Below, in pieces: positions 59 to 53,982 of a DNA stretch of 54,021 nucleotides. The position numbers and the translations under genes are program-made. This DNA comes from a delta proteobacterium MLS_D (GTDB lineage: Bacteria > Desulfobacterota > Syntrophia > Syntrophales > UBA2210). Numbering within the stretch: the stretch's first letter is position 1; each line of letters starts with the position of its first letter. A model generated the notes under the pieces. The model saw only the letters and a list, made by a program, of their open reading frames with translations. It did no database searches and was not told the origin of the DNA. Where the stretch lies: the NCBI GenBank assembly GCA_002030015.1, contig LQBH01000004.1, positions 1 to 54,021 on the forward strand. The letters are read 5' to 3'.

Positions 59-100
59 TTCACCCCCACCCTGACCCTCCCCCTTCAAGGGGGGGGGATA
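59..100. repeat. REP-like palindromic element, orientation 1
   Basis: The core is a C-rich arm, a short TTCA centre and a G-rich arm, preceded by a CCACCCTGACCC-type segment. It closely resembles the element at 14357-14400. Read in reverse complement, it has the same layout as the elements at 195-234, 14295-14337 and 53943-53982. Confidence 0.6.
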
Positions 101-13235: not shown

Positions 13236-13844
13236 TCACGGCGTTTCGCCGGGATTCCGCGGGAACGGGACAATGTCCGAAAAGGCCGCCAGGAGCTCTG
13301 AACGGCCCTGTCCCGTTCGTGCCGAGAACAGTATGAGTTCGTCCGCCGGAACCTGCAACGGCTTCGCCAGGTCACGTCGCCTTGCGGCGGCAGCGCTTTT
13401 CGACAGCTTATCCGCTTTTGTCAATACGAAACGGTGAGGAATTCCGTAGTGAACAAGCCAGTCGATCAGCGTCCGGTCCTCCGGTGAAGTATCCCGACGT
13501 ATGTCGAGAATTACGACGACAAGTTTCAGGTTCTGCCTGGTTTGCAGGTATTCTTCCACCATAGGTCCCCACTGCTCTTTGACGGCTCGGGGCACCCGGG
13601 CGAACCCGTATCCCGGGAGATCGACGAAGTGGGCCGCCCGCCGGACGAGGAAAAAATTTATCTGCTGGGTTCTGCCGGGCGTACCACTGGTGCGGGCCAG
13701 ACGTTTTCTGCCGAGCACGGTGTTGATAACCGATGATTTTCCGACGTTTGAACGGCCGGCAAACGCCACTTCAGGAAGCGTTCCCGCCGGATATCCGGAG
13801 CGGCGTACGGCGCTCGTGACAAACTCGGCGTCGATACTGTTCAT
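13236..13844 (-). CDS. engB: Ribosome biogenesis GTPase EngB (YsxC/YihA)
   Basis: A 202-residue TrmE-Era-EngA-EngB-Septin family GTPase needed for late 50S ribosomal subunit assembly. The motifs appear in order: P-loop GRSNVGKSS (30-38), G2-region threonines in ARTSGTPGRTQ, G3 DLPGYG and G4 TKAD. Length is normal. The ATG has GAGG upstream, at the far end of useful spacing. It is on the same strand as the hdr operon, whose first gene begins 151 bases downstream, probably with its own promoter. Confidence 0.95.
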   Translation of the reverse strand: MNSIDAEFVTSAVRRSGYPAGTLPEVAFAGRSNVGKSSVINTVLGRKRLARTSGTPGRTQQINFFLVRRAAHFVDLPGYGFARVPRAVKEQWGPMVEEYLQTRQNLKLVVVILDIRRDTSPEDRTLIDWLVHYGIPHRFVLTKADKLSKSAAAARRRDLAKPLQVPADELILFSARTGQGRSELLAAFSDIVPFPRNPGETP

Positions 13845-13940: not shown

Positions 13941-14169
13941 TCCTGTCGGACAAGCGAAGCGCGATCCGGTAGTCTCCAGCTGTACAGGATAAAAACCAGG
14001 CAAGAGGGAATCCGGAAAGTACCTGCGGGCCGTGTCCCCGTCAGGGAGTTATACCATCCTTAAAAATATATGACGAATGCGGCGGTTTTGTAAAGTTCTG
14101 AAATAATGTACTGGGCGGGATGTATGGTCCTAAAAAAGTCCCCGGAAGGGATATACCGGTCCTGTAAAA

Positions 14170-14290
14170 AATTCTCTCCATTCCCCCGGGGAGAGGCGAT
14201 AATCCCTGAAGCTTTTTCTCTTTCCCTGGAGGAAGGGGATAATCTCTGAAGTTTTCTTCCCTTCCCCTGAGGGAGGTGATGATCCCCTAA
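14170..14290. repeat. Tandem degenerate palindromic repeats, about 41-base period
   Basis: Three successive palindromes are centred near 14187, 14228 and 14270. Each has a C/T-rich arm facing a G/A-rich arm and is joined to the next by an AT-containing linker such as GATAATCCCTGAAGC or GATAATCTCTGAAGT. The regular spacing and shared linker show tandem multiplication with drift. Confidence 0.65.
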
Positions 14291-14294
14291 ATTG

Positions 14295-14337
14295 TTTCCC
14301 CTCCCCTGGAGGGAGGGGAATAAGGGGAGGGGGAAAT
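14295..14337. repeat. REP-like palindromic element, orientation 2
   Basis: The core is CCCTCCCCTGGAGGGAGGGG followed by a short AT-containing spacer and a second G-rich block. This is nearly identical to 53943-53982. It is the fourth unit of the array and faces an inverted copy at 14357-14400. Confidence 0.7.
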
Positions 14338-14356
14338 CGGTACACAACGGCATTGT

Positions 14357-14400
14357 TCACCCTCACCCCGACCCTCTCCCTTGAAGGGAGAGGGGGATAA
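14357..14400. repeat. REP-like palindromic element, orientation 1
   Basis: CCCTCACCCCGACCCTCTCC leads into a TTGAA centre and a GGGAGAGGGGG arm. In reverse complement it has the same layout as 14295-14337, so the two form an inverted pair, as in bipartite REP (BIME) elements. It also matches 59-100. Confidence 0.7.
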
Positions 14401-14401
14401 A

Positions 14402-14442
14402 AAAATTATCTCTGAAAGCTTCTCCCCCTCCCCTGAGTGGGT
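14402..14442. repeat. Degenerate final unit of the palindrome array
   Basis: The linker ATTATCTCTGAAAGCTTC precedes a C-rich arm and a broken G-rich arm (CCCCTGAGTGGG), centred near 14433. The linker matches those between units 1 to 3, so this is probably a decayed member of the same array. Confidence 0.5.
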
Positions 14443-14491
14443 GTATCGGTCCCGTAAAAAGTCCTTCTGGAGGGGACTAGATGGTTACATC

Positions 14492-14521
14492 TTGACAGTG
14501 CGTATTTTTTTGTGCGCTAAT
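14492..14521 (+). promoter_or_regulatory. Candidate dus promoter
   Basis: A perfect TTGACA (14492-14497) is followed after 18 bases by GCTAAT (14516-14521). Transcription would begin near 14528. That lies downstream of the ATG at 14520 and therefore favours a later start codon for dus. Confidence 0.45.
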
Positions 14522-14573
14522 GCCGTCACCGTCGGAACCGCCCGAACGGGTGAAATTGTGCGGGCATGAAATC

Positions 14574-15575
14574 ATGAATATCGGCAGTCTTTCGTTATCA
14601 AACGGTCTTTTTCTGGCGCCCATGGCCGGCATCAGCGATTCCGCATTCAGGATGGTGGCGCGGAGTTTCGGCGCCTCGCTCTGCTATAGCGAGATGATCA
14701 GCGCTGAAGGTCTCGTGCGTGGAACCGGCCGGTCTTTCGAATATCTTGCCTCGCCGCCCGGCGACAAACCCCTGGGTATTCAGCTTTTCGGTGCCAACCC
14801 GGAGGCACTGGCGGAGGCGGCGATTATCGCGGTTGAACAGGGCGCTGATCTTGTGGACATTAACATGGGGTGCCCCGTCAAAAAGGTTATACGAAACGGC
14901 GCCGGCGCCGCCCTGATGAAAGATCCGGCACGTGTTGCCGCCATTGTATCGGTGGTGCGCCGTGCGGTGACCTGTCCTCTCACGGTGAAACTCAGATCCG
15001 GCTGGAGCGAGGCGTCTATTAATGTTGTTGAAATTGCGCGTATTGTACAGGATTGCGGTGTCGACGCGGTGACCGTTCATCCCCGGACGGCGGTCAGGGG
15101 ATTCAGGGGAGGCGCGGACTGGCGTCTCACGGCGCAGGTCAAAAACGTTCTTTCCGTTCCGGTTATCGGAAGCGGCGACATCTGGACGGCCGCCGATATC
15201 CGCCGGATCAGGGATGTCGCCGGCTGTGACGCGGTCATGGTGGCCAGGGGAAGTCTGGGGAATCCATGGATTTTCAGGGATGCCCTGCGGGAAGAGGAAT
15301 CGGGACTTTCAGCGGGTGGCCCTTCCCCGACGGAACGGGAAGAGACGATCAGACGTCACATGCACCTCGCTCTCGACCTGTACGGGGAGAACCGGGGCAT
15401 GTTTATTTTTAGAAAACACATGCTCTGGTATACGAAAGGTCTGCCCGGCGGCGCCCGGTTCAGAAAGACCGTTCTTGAGGAGAAAAGCAGGGAAGCCGTC
15501 CTGGAATCGCTGCACCGGTTTCTTCACTCAACAGAGGTGCTGATGTCGCCCGACAGTCAGGAGAGACTCGTTTAA
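14574..15575 (+). CDS. dusB: tRNA-dihydrouridine synthase (Dus family)
   Basis: An FMN-dependent enzyme reducing specific uridines in tRNA to dihydrouridine. The N-terminal segment LAPMAGISD is the flavin-binding signature. INMGCPVKKV holds the catalytic cysteine (C100), and VMVARGSLGNPWIF near residue 225 is conserved in DusB. With the start at 14574 the protein has 333 residues, typical of DusB. An in-frame ATG at 14520 would add 18 atypical residues and probably lies before the transcription start. A GTG at 14550 is also possible. No strong ribosome binding site marks any of the three. The Dus subtype is by overall resemblance. Confidence 0.88.
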   Translation: MNIGSLSLSNGLFLAPMAGISDSAFRMVARSFGASLCYSEMISAEGLVRGTGRSFEYLASPPGDKPLGIQLFGANPEALAEAAIIAVEQGADLVDINMGCPVKKVIRNGAGAALMKDPARVAAIVSVVRRAVTCPLTVKLRSGWSEASINVVEIARIVQDCGVDAVTVHPRTAVRGFRGGADWRLTAQVKNVLSVPVIGSGDIWTAADIRRIRDVAGCDAVMVARGSLGNPWIFRDALREEESGLSAGGPSPTEREETIRRHMHLALDLYGENRGMFIFRKHMLWYTKGLPGGARFRKTVLEEKSREAVLESLHRFLHSTEVLMSPDSQERLV

Positions 15576-15979: not shown

Positions 15980-16264
15980 TTGAAGAAACGTTTCGACATA
16001 CGGGTGATGGATCAGGACTTTTCGATCCTCAGCGACAAAGAAGACGCCTATGCCGAACGAGTTGTCGGTTTTGTCAACGATCGAGCACGAGAAACAAGGA
16101 AGGCTGTAAAGGACGGTACGGATTTGGGCATCGCCATATTGGTCGCTTTGAATATAGCTGACGAGCTGTTTGAAGTACGGAAACAGCGGGAAGAAGACAT
16201 GGGCCAGATGGAGAGCCGGGCGGCAAGATTGATAGATTATATAAGTACAAGAGGAAATACGTGA
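15980..16264 (+). CDS. zapA: Cell division protein ZapA
   Basis: A 94-residue FtsZ-associated protein that promotes bundling of Z-ring protofilaments. It has the family layout: an N-terminal beta segment (FDIRVMDQDFSI), then AERVVGFVNDRARE, then a long C-terminal helix for dimer and tetramer formation (ALNIADELFEVRKQ). The start is TTG at 15980 with AAAGGGGACGG upstream. The stop codon is 6 bases from the 6S RNA, repeating the conserved zapA-ssrS linkage of proteobacteria. Confidence 0.88.
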   Translation: MKKRFDIRVMDQDFSILSDKEDAYAERVVGFVNDRARETRKAVKDGTDLGIAILVALNIADELFEVRKQREEDMGQMESRAARLIDYISTRGNT

Positions 16265-16269
16265 TGGTG

Positions 16270-16468
16270 AAATCCCCTGCGGTGTACGTGATTGACTGTT
16301 TTTTTTTGATCCAACAGCCATATGCAAGGAAGCCCTTCTTTTTCCGTGGTGAGCAGGTCTTCCCCGTTCCTTCCGGAACGGACGGAAGATAGCCTTAAGC
16401 GGAAAACAGGGCGTCCACCTTTGTATACGGTTCAAAAAGATAGTTAACACGGCATCAGCGGGGGATTA
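16270..16468 (+). ncRNA. ssrS: 6S RNA
   Basis: A regulator RNA that mimics an open promoter and binds sigma-70 RNA polymerase in stationary phase. The ends close into the expected helix: AATCCCC (16271-16277) pairs with GGGGATT (16461-16467), continuing through TGC/GCG and GTGT/ACAC. Internal signatures match canonical 6S: GGTGAGCAGG near 16350, AGCCTTAAG (16391-16399) and GTCCACCTTTG after it. Placement just after zapA is the classic location. Length is near 200 bases. The exact ends are estimated; a TATATAA box at 16238-16244 inside zapA could be the promoter. Confidence 0.88.
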
Positions 16469-34186: not shown

Positions 34187-34867
34187 ATGCCACGACTGTC
34201 CCGCATAGTAGTCACCGGGTTTCCCCATCACGTTACGCAGCGCGGCGTGCGATCAATGGATATCTTCGCCGATGATCATGACAGGAGTCAGTATGTACAC
34301 TTCATGCGCGAGGAATCCCGGAGACACGAAATGGAGATTCTCGCCTGGTGCCTGATGACGAACCATGTTCACTTCATCGTCGTACCCCACAGTGAAACCT
34401 CTCTTGCCCGTGGATTCGGCGAAGCCCATAAGCGATACACGCGCATGAAAAATTTCCGCGAAGCTACCCGCGGGTATCTTTTCCAGGGCCGTTTCAGTTC
34501 CTCTGTTCTTGATGAGCCCCATCTGCTTGCCGCAACCCGTTACGTCGAGAACAATCCCGTCGCCGCGGGAATGGTGCGCTGTGCCTGGCACTATCAGTGG
34601 TCTAGTGCGGCTTTTCACGTAGGTGATGTGGAAGAGGATCCTCTGGTGAAAGACAAAAGCCTTTGGGATCTGGTAGGTGATTGGCGGTCTTTCCTGGAGG
34701 AAGGTGCTCGTCGCGGTACGGGGGATGCGGAAAATCTGGTCATGAAAGCGACACGTACGGGCCGTCCTGCAGGGGACAGCGACTTTATAAAGAAGATAGA
34801 GAGACTGACCGATCGTGACTTGAGTCGGAAAAAGCCGGGGCCGAAGGGGAAAAGGGGCGATAATTAA
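34187..34867 (+). CDS. REP-associated tyrosine transposase (RAYT, Y1_Tnp/IS200-like)
   Basis: A 226-residue single-strand DNA transposase of the TnpA_REP group. The HUH motif is H60-V-H62 in NHVHFIVVP, and the likely catalytic tyrosine is Y119 in ATRYVENNPVAAGM. The N-terminal MPRLSRIVV...HHVTQRG is typical of RAYTs. The lysine-rich C-terminus (SRKKPGPKGKRGDN) ends at a TAA lying inside the right inverted repeat. The frame and motifs are intact, so the protein may be active. RAYTs are usually single-copy and chromosomal, and are thought to disperse palindromic REP sequences. Confidence 0.88.
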   Translation: MPRLSRIVVTGFPHHVTQRGVRSMDIFADDHDRSQYVHFMREESRRHEMEILAWCLMTNHVHFIVVPHSETSLARGFGEAHKRYTRMKNFREATRGYLFQGRFSSSVLDEPHLLAATRYVENNPVAAGMVRCAWHYQWSSAAFHVGDVEEDPLVKDKSLWDLVGDWRSFLEEGARRGTGDAENLVMKATRTGRPAGDSDFIKKIERLTDRDLSRKKPGPKGKRGDN

Positions 34868-34992
34868 GTGTTATGTCCCCCGAATTCGTGTAAAGAAGAT
34901 AGAGAGACTGACCGATCGTGACTTGAGTCGGAAAAAGCCGGGGCCGAAGGGGGAAAAGGGGCGATAATTAAGTGTTATGTCCCCCGAATTCG
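34788..34992. repeat. Tandem duplication of the RAYT 3' end, about 102 bases
   Basis: Bases 34788-34888 and 34891-34992 are identical except for one extra G in the second copy. Each holds the last 26 codons of the transposase frame plus the right inverted repeat. The second copy has no start of its own and is a non-coding remnant. Confidence 0.92.
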
Positions 34993-53942: not shown

Positions 53943-53982
53943 TTCCCCTCCCCTGGAGGGAGGGGATGAAGGGGAGGGGGTG
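53943..53982. repeat. REP-like palindromic element, orientation 2
   Basis: The core CCCTCCCCTGGAGGGAGGGG is followed by a short spacer and GGGGAGGGGG. It is nearly identical to the element at 14295-14337 and similar to 195-234. Confidence 0.7.

Follow-up and report, generated by a model that had tools for sequence, protein, structure and literature searches.

Introduction

BoxC/PIT/TM elements were first described in Escherichia coli in the 1990s. According to the excerpts of Holder et al. 2015 (PMC4666352) on which we draw throughout, the E. coli form, TM_ECO, whose kind is also present in other Proteobacteria, is an intergenic class II C-G-G triplex motif with the consensus CCCTCNCCCN3-6GGGNGAGGGN3GGGNGAGGG. 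The motif forms a triplex in vitro by CD and NMR, where 18 imino signals were read as a triplex by the authors, and a DMS footprint indicated no stable triplex in vivo. The same excerpts name a quadruplex as a possible competitor of the triplex and report more rearrangement near the motifs, with slippage as a possible cause but no in vivo proof. They assign the elements no settled function, report, citing earlier work, neither promoter nor terminator activity, and state that a link to transposons was not found in E. coli. Motifs of A-type and B-type are joined in all five E. coli pairs, four of which face inward with gaps of 16-27 nt and one outward (Table 1 of PMC4666352).

The B-type stem has also been met under other descriptions. 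About 100 palindromes of the form CCCTCTCCC-XX(X)-GGGAGAGGG, which frequently stand as doublets or triplets at the 3' ends of genes and are presumed to be terminators, are described for Enterobacter sp. 638 in the excerpted part of PMC2869309, and the same stem appears among the primers tabulated for E. asburiae (PMC10845240, likewise excerpted). A different class of short, dispersed, intergenic palindromes is formed by the REP, BIME and REPIN sequences, for which our definitions are drawn from excerpts of PMC8266576 and PMC3733652. These palindromes are mobilised by a RAYT/TnpA-REP transposase and occur as inverted pairs and tandem runs, and PMC3733652 describes large REP clusters as tandemly reiterated units with flanking DNA.

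Here we analyse an intergenic array of palindromes in a delta proteobacterium of the order Syntrophales. The stretch of DNA that was analysed (the window, 54,021 nucleotides) corresponds to an entire contig (C4) of a genome of 2.51 Mb (2,512,366 bases) that is 96% complete and comprises 70 contigs.

Results

An intergenic array ending in two perfect stems

According to the ORF list and Pfam profiles, the array lies between two divergent genes. One encodes a ribosome-binding GTPase of the EngB/YihA type (13236-13844, minus strand; PF01926, E=8e-19), which we take to be EngB, and the other a tRNA-dihydrouridine synthase (Dus; 14520-15575, plus strand; PF01207, E=2e-88). Just beyond the array, a promoter-like stretch of the Dus gene with TTGACA at 14492-14497 (plus strand) was recognised by eye and is also present in the related loci L071, L072 and L073; the sites listed by a promoter scan do not include this TTGACA. 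At gathering thresholds, Rfam reported 6S RNA alone in the window (RF00013, 103 bits, 16271-16468). The 6S RNA lies directly 3' of a short ORF (15980-16264), which presumably corresponds to zapA by its resemblance.

The original prediction had described tandem palindromes 40-42 bases apart, and this arrangement was borne out by the tandem-repeat search, in which TRF reported an array at 14177-14319 with a period of 40, 3.6 copies, 75% matches, a score of 151 and stem spacings of 40, 40 and 40. The predicted number of six also stands, since six related stems can be recognised from about 14172 to 14475, but only two of them (14296-14320 and 14372-14394, in opposite orientations) are perfect, and the remaining four are imperfect by eye. 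All the other units lie on the plus strand: a degenerate stem 1 at 14172-14196, defined by the TRF array and the DNA fold; imperfect stems 2 (14218-14239) and 3 (14258-14279), defined by the TRF array and repeat comparison; a right-hand linker with stem 5 at 14405-14443, belonging to repeat family D2 with 82% identity to its reference copy; and a remnant, stem 6, at 14463-14475, recognised by eye. By eye and by repeat-family comparison, the array thus continues rightward over 14405-14475 in the orientation of the left array. Decayed units also extend it leftward over about 14112-14168 (plus strand), where we recognised by eye two linker-plus-stem remnants with linkers containing CCTAAAAAAGTC and CCTGTAAAAAATTC. 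The linkers GATAATC-CTGAAG, predicted to be conserved, are clear in two cases (14198 and 14238) and rough in others. As a single strand, 14165-14470 folds better than 100 of 100 dinucleotide shuffles (z -4.4). The stems are imperfect and the linkers alike, so that near-identical repeats with unrelated spacers are not what is seen here; in line with the original prediction, the repeats and linkers show no sign of CRISPR.

The perfect stems carry third strands

The fourth and fifth palindromes had been predicted to be inverted copies of one unit. Their orientation is indeed opposite, but they represent two stem types, A (TCCCCTCCC/GGGAGGGGA) and B (CCCTCTCCC/GGGAGAGGG). On the 3' side of each perfect stem lies a G-rich third strand, at 14322-14332 for the A-type and at 14369-14359 for the B-type, which the original prediction did not report. 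In the A-type the G-rich arm GGGAGGGGA is followed by AGGGGAGGG, and in the B-type the arm GGGAGAGGG by GGGTGAGGG; each third strand mirrors its arm. The complete A-type class II triplex motif occupies 14296-14332 on the plus strand (C-rich strand at 14296-14306, G-rich strand at 14310-14320 and third strand at 14322-14332, separated by loops), as defined by a triplex scan and by alignment with E. coli and relatives. The complete B-type motif, at 14359-14395 on the minus strand, agrees with the published consensus at every base (PMC4666352, excerpts), and the A-type motif is a stem variant that does not match the exact consensus string. Both motifs reached a score of 20 in the scan, and 9/9 triads fit the antiparallel purine register (C-G-G, T-A-A, T-A-T) in both. 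A spacer of 26 nt (14333-14358), identified in the neighbour analysis, separates the two third strands.

We asked how closely third strands follow their stems, using 16 distinct pairs of arm and third strand, all with a second loop of 3 nt, from own-genome stretches and from 34 loci of relatives. The mean was 7.56 fitting triads of 9, compared with 6.11 when third strands were re-dealt among arms, and 0 of 10000 deals reached the observed value, a count that is not a clean probability because the 16 pairs are related to one another. Among the six arm strings of this test, four have a partner with 9/9 triads, and the other two, which are register-shifted readings, attain at most six triads. Inspection by eye showed that the third strands of two stem classes mirror their arms, with exchanges of A or T, rather than copying them directly. 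Mirror-image third strands with such exchanges are not a product of ordinary copying. The tracking of stems by third strands across several stem classes provides sequence-level support for a triplex over a plain hairpin or a quadruplex.

A G-quadruplex element is the alternative closest to this reading. The G-rich half (GGGAGGGGAATAAGGGGAGGGGG and GGGAGAGGGTCGGGGTGAGGG) could form an intramolecular quadruplex, with the C-rich arm being incidental, and each motif does contain four successive G-runs of at least three, in line with the competitor named in the excerpts of PMC4666352. However, a quadruplex requires neither that the C-rich arm stay complementary nor that the A/T positions of the third strand track the stem, as they do, and the 18 imino signals of the E. 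coli motif were read there as a triplex. We therefore regard the quadruplex as improbable.

The triplex scan located two further motifs of the BoxC-like family in the window, one B-type at 62-97 (minus strand) and one A-type at 53943-53978 (plus strand). The start and the end of the contig (1-400 and 53785-54021) both lie within copies of the same triplex-carrying repeat, and this repeat therefore probably caused the assembly break. A further triplex class, TTCCCCCC..GGGGGGAA..AAGGGGGG, was observed in own-genome contigs C42 (2193-2238 and 8905-8939) and C55 (4918-4950), and some motifs of this class have arrays of their own.

A dispersed family of inverted A-with-B pairs

The question whether the unit occurs elsewhere in the genome has a clear answer. 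With the array as the query, BLAST gave 73 matches at E<=10 throughout the 2.5-Mb genome, including the window itself and reverse-strand palindrome echoes. A looser stem pattern with three mismatches gave 23 matches compared with 14 in the control and was set aside as evidence. A 116-nt core matched in 25 of 41 genomes searched, the own genome included. Own-genome counts below refer to 145,215 bases fetched around matches, out of 2,512,366, and are therefore not a random sample. The class II triplex scan of these 145 kb identified 59 motifs at a score of at least 16, and their mid-points fell inside a six-frame ORF with a minimum length of 120 aa in 14/59 cases, compared with 4058/4399 control positions. 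In the same stretches, all 15 of the neighbouring motifs at most 90 nt apart (gaps 10-70) were inverted, with third strands facing inward and an A-type joined to a B-type. The dispersed, mostly intergenic and oppositely paired palindromes of the original prediction are thus confirmed. The inward rule depends on the 90-nt cut: the next neighbours, with a gap of 91 nt, have third strands facing outward, and more distant ones are mixed.

Beyond this genome, a search of 297 genomes of the phylum found the exact published consensus in 97 and the reversed pattern in two. Among phages, 2 of 50,697 records matched the pair at E<=1, and among plasmids 113 of 72,556, few of them over the whole pair. In E. 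coli strain K_EC180, the yggL-yggN gap aligned with 94% of the 111-nt window pair (74.5% identity, E=3e-7); 4484 of 5426 E. coli genomes matched the pair at the loose threshold of E<=10, 504 of them with a query coverage of at least 80%.

The window family shares with BoxC/PIT/TM elements the consensus (in the B-type), the antiparallel register, the inverted A-with-B pairs, with a window gap of 26 nt, and the dispersed intergenic copies. Its A-type stem is TCCCCTCCC/GGGAGGGGA rather than the CCCTCGCCCC given in the excerpts of PMC4666352. The window pair is almost certainly a BoxC/PIT/TM element, composed of inverted class II intrastrand-triplex motifs. The Enterobacter sp. 638 palindromes resemble it in the identical B-type stem, in their copy number of about 100 and in often occurring in twos and threes, but the excerpted part of PMC2869309 describes them as hairpins and names neither a third strand nor a carrier.

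In E. coli K-12 (L248-L265), the outer flanks of 15 A-type BoxC motifs are alike, with a mean pairwise score of 13.94 compared with 10.93 (sd 0.22) in shuffles; the value for eight B-type motifs is 11.93 compared with 10.78 (sd 0.38). Conservation past the motif suggests that the E. coli element may exceed the motif in length.

Comparison with REP/BIME elements and other explanations

The original prediction assigned the array a REP/BIME architecture. Part of this description stands, because the family is dispersed and mainly intergenic with inverted pairs and tandem runs, such as those of BIME structures and of the reiterated REP clusters of PMC3733652. The genome even contains two Y1_Tnp genes, and a short C/G stem is located next to the start of one of them. 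The hallmarks of mobilisation by a RAYT/TnpA-REP transposase were not seen, however. Neither GTAG nor CGTC, the tags covered by our test, occurred within 12 nt of either foot in any of the 59 motifs, or anywhere in 14165-14482, where the variant tag GGAG occurs eight times inside stems. Both own-genome Y1_Tnp genes have, by eye, long inverted ends of their own, so that neither (0 of 2) qualifies as a cognate, repeat-flanked RAYT. Relatives gave 26 Y1_Tnp matches, but four of 12 unit-carrying genomes (G003, G004, G029 and G031, with completeness of 80, 96, 99 and 100%, respectively) had the unit without any Y1_Tnp match at E<=0.001. Finally, the REP/BIME model has no place for a third strand. 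A REP, BIME or REPIN origin of the array is thus decidedly improbable.

As for the two Y1_Tnp genes, the one in the window (34187-34867; IS200-like/RAYT-type) has inverted ends GGGGACATAACACTTAATTAT that bear no relation to the triplex repeat, and its 3' end recurs as an incomplete second copy at about 34885-34990. The second (L070, C46:8782-9105) has inverted ends GGGACGTAGTTAACTTATTAACTTAT, within which the stem CCCCC-TTGCA-GGGGA is located by the gene start.

The hairpins are strong by folding and the related Enterobacter palindromes were presumed terminators (PMC2869309), which raises the question whether the array could terminate transcription or stabilise mRNA for the flanking genes. These genes are divergent, and hence neither transcript ends at the array. 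A single terminator-like site was found, compared with 1.3 expected in shuffles, and it is located outside the array stems; moreover, the excerpts of PMC4666352 report BoxC/PIT elements to be devoid of promoter or terminator activity. Such a role is highly improbable. Despite a moderate TRF array score, the idea that a C/G-rich minisatellite expanded here by chance, without belonging to a dispersed family, is all but certainly wrong, as it is refuted by the genome-wide matches, the occurrence in 25 of 41 genomes and the 15/15 pairing rule.

Extra stems lie on the C-rich side

We counted extra stems within 220 nt of 56 of the 59 motifs, leaving out three with shorter flanks. An extra stem was found on the C-rich side of 26/56 motifs (12/27 solo and 14/29 paired) and on the third-strand side of 0/27 solo and 11/29 paired motifs; the latter 11 are taken to be the stem of the partner. 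Shuffled flanks contained no extra stems. The difference between 12/27 and 0/27 among solo motifs indicates that stem copies were added on one side. Their spacings are mostly 36-43 nt.

Identity showed no decay gradient away from the complete motif over ranks 1-6 (0.73, 0.75, 0.72, 0.64, 0.69 and 0.72), and no duplication junction at a constant position was seen in the second loop, where 0.83 of four bases match compared with 0.79 in shuffles, so that slippage has no direct trace besides polarity and period. The idea that linkers are wholly locus-specific was rejected, as linker families, recognised by eye and in their contexts, are common to several loci; the arrays were therefore in part copied along with their surroundings. 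We give the origin of the array by slippage about an even chance.

In other genomes, a stem copy on the C-rich side was found at 3 of 71 motifs, including one in a genus mate (the count omits L064 and L191, whose stretches are off centre). Since the triplex is the same, the motif alone is insufficient to produce an array. Among the loci examined, one-sided arrays are mainly a habit of the window's genus.

A transposon-like carrier in relatives

In relatives from other genera and families, the A+B pair is found inside a compact element of about 157 bp with inverted ends TTGATGnnnTCGTAAAAAGTC. Loci that had been retrieved with the pair or with the ends yielded 26 such elements of 120-250 bp (two of 28 fell outside this range and were left out); 18 contain a BoxC-like pair, and all 18 measure 155-159 bp. 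The two bases flanking the ends are directly repeated in 15/26 elements (mean 2.3 and maximum 8 in 2000 shuffles) and in 11 of the 18 with a BoxC-like pair; they are repeated in the inverted sense in 5/26. A 6-bp direct flank repeat, mostly AANNTT, is present in 11/26. Judged from these sequences, the flank duplication at the carrier ends has the appearance of a mark of transposition, and a transposon-like carrier of the BoxC-like pair very probably exists in the relatives. The end pattern occurs in at least 45 of 119 genomes of the order, and its reversed pattern in 0 of 119. The same ends also flank other, quite different palindromes (L180, L189, L197, L227, L232 and L233), as if one small transposon bore exchangeable palindrome cassettes.

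The relatives' element resembles MITEs in its size of about 157 bp, its 21-bp inverted ends, a 2-bp flank duplication, its many copies and its lack of genes; it is unlike them in that the same ends also enclose other palindromes. Inverted ends together with a target duplication are found in the relatives' copies but not at the window copy, which does not have both inverted ends and keeps only decayed, same-orientation pieces of one end.

No intact TTGATGnnnTCGTAAAAAGTC end was present among the own-genome matches listed, which include one with a mismatch. In the window, CGTAAAAAGTC, the exact 11-base core of the relatives' end, is located by pattern match in a linker at 14453-14463 (plus strand); it is the only plus-strand match to the end with at most one mismatch in the window, and no right-hand carrier end within one mismatch was found near the array. 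When the seven linkers were compared with the transposon end, one matched strongly, three weakly (p 0.03-0.09) and three not at all, and we rejected the idea that all linkers derive from that end. The linkers with CCTAAAAAAGTC and CCTGTAAAAAATTC gave p=0.034 and 0.086 against shuffles, uncorrected. The summed linker score exceeded 1000 of 1000 shuffles, with much of it contributed by one linker.

The own genome contains a second, larger repeat of 315-567 bp with ends CCCAAAATCCGCGATTG (13 copies in the fetched stretches), which houses many motifs: at least one scored motif in 11/13 copies and at least two in 5/13.

The site in relatives

In G001, which belongs to the same genus, the orthologous gap (L244, showing no difference from L073 across the compared stretch) is free of the array, and in G004 (L243/L072), where the Dus protein is 88% identical, it contains other repeats including part of the second carrier, the larger repeat with ends CCCAAAATCCGCGATTG. 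By eye, positions 1-310 of L072, the orthologous gap of a genus mate, show a different tandem array with a unit near CCGGTTGnCGACCATACCGAATGGTnCnGGATGA together with that carrier part. The gap between the GTPase and Dus genes seems to collect repeats. The promoter-like stretch beside the array, with TTGACA and TAAT, is kept by eye in all compared gaps. Because the gap is array-free or otherwise filled in relatives, the array either arrived late, beside the promoter-like stretch, or was lost in the others.

Discussion

We favour, with moderate confidence, an account in which the window contains a BoxC/PIT/TM inverted pair of A- and B-type triplex motifs with an outer array of stems on the C-rich side, the element acts at the level of DNA, and in relatives it is spread by transposition of its carrier. 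When a strand is exposed during replication or repair, the two arms would pair and the third strand would fold back onto them. The folded triplex might then block the polymerase, and slippage at the block could reiterate the stem plus its flank with a step of about 40 nt. Transposition of the carrier would spread the element from site to site, at least in the relatives, whereas in the own genome the carrier end may be left as decayed pieces, with motifs residing in the second, larger repeat or alone. The element is likely to be selfish or neutral DNA that travels as cargo of a transposon and through its fold gives rise to tandem slippage, and no service to the host is necessary to explain it.

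The carrier and the one-sided arrays appear to be new with respect to the known BoxC/PIT/TM elements. The excerpts of PMC4666352 contain neither stem-only tandem copies on the C-rich side, as in the window genome, nor a pair carried as cargo of a small transposon-like element, as in the relatives. Among the literature matches listed, seen in part and covering few subscription journals, the motif was joined neither to a transposon nor to one-sided arrays, and a search with the letters of the transposon end returned, judged by title, no paper on bacterial repeats.

A broader interpretation, which we put forward tentatively and consider doubtful, is that BoxC-kind triplex repeats generally travel as cargo inside small DNA transposons, a cassette swapped between different carriers, with the E. 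coli copies being relics. It draws on the two sets of ends that enclose the A+B pair, TTGATGnnnTCGTAAAAAGTC in the relatives and CCCAAAATCCGCGATTG in the own genome, and on the conserved outer flank of the E. coli A-type motifs. The triplex would then aid its carrier, for instance by retaining single-stranded DNA at the fork. If true, this interpretation would account for the spread of the motif between phyla. The copies within the order Syntrophales offer both a testable spreading route, in the carrier ends and the flank duplication, and a visible local trace, in the one-sided stem arrays.
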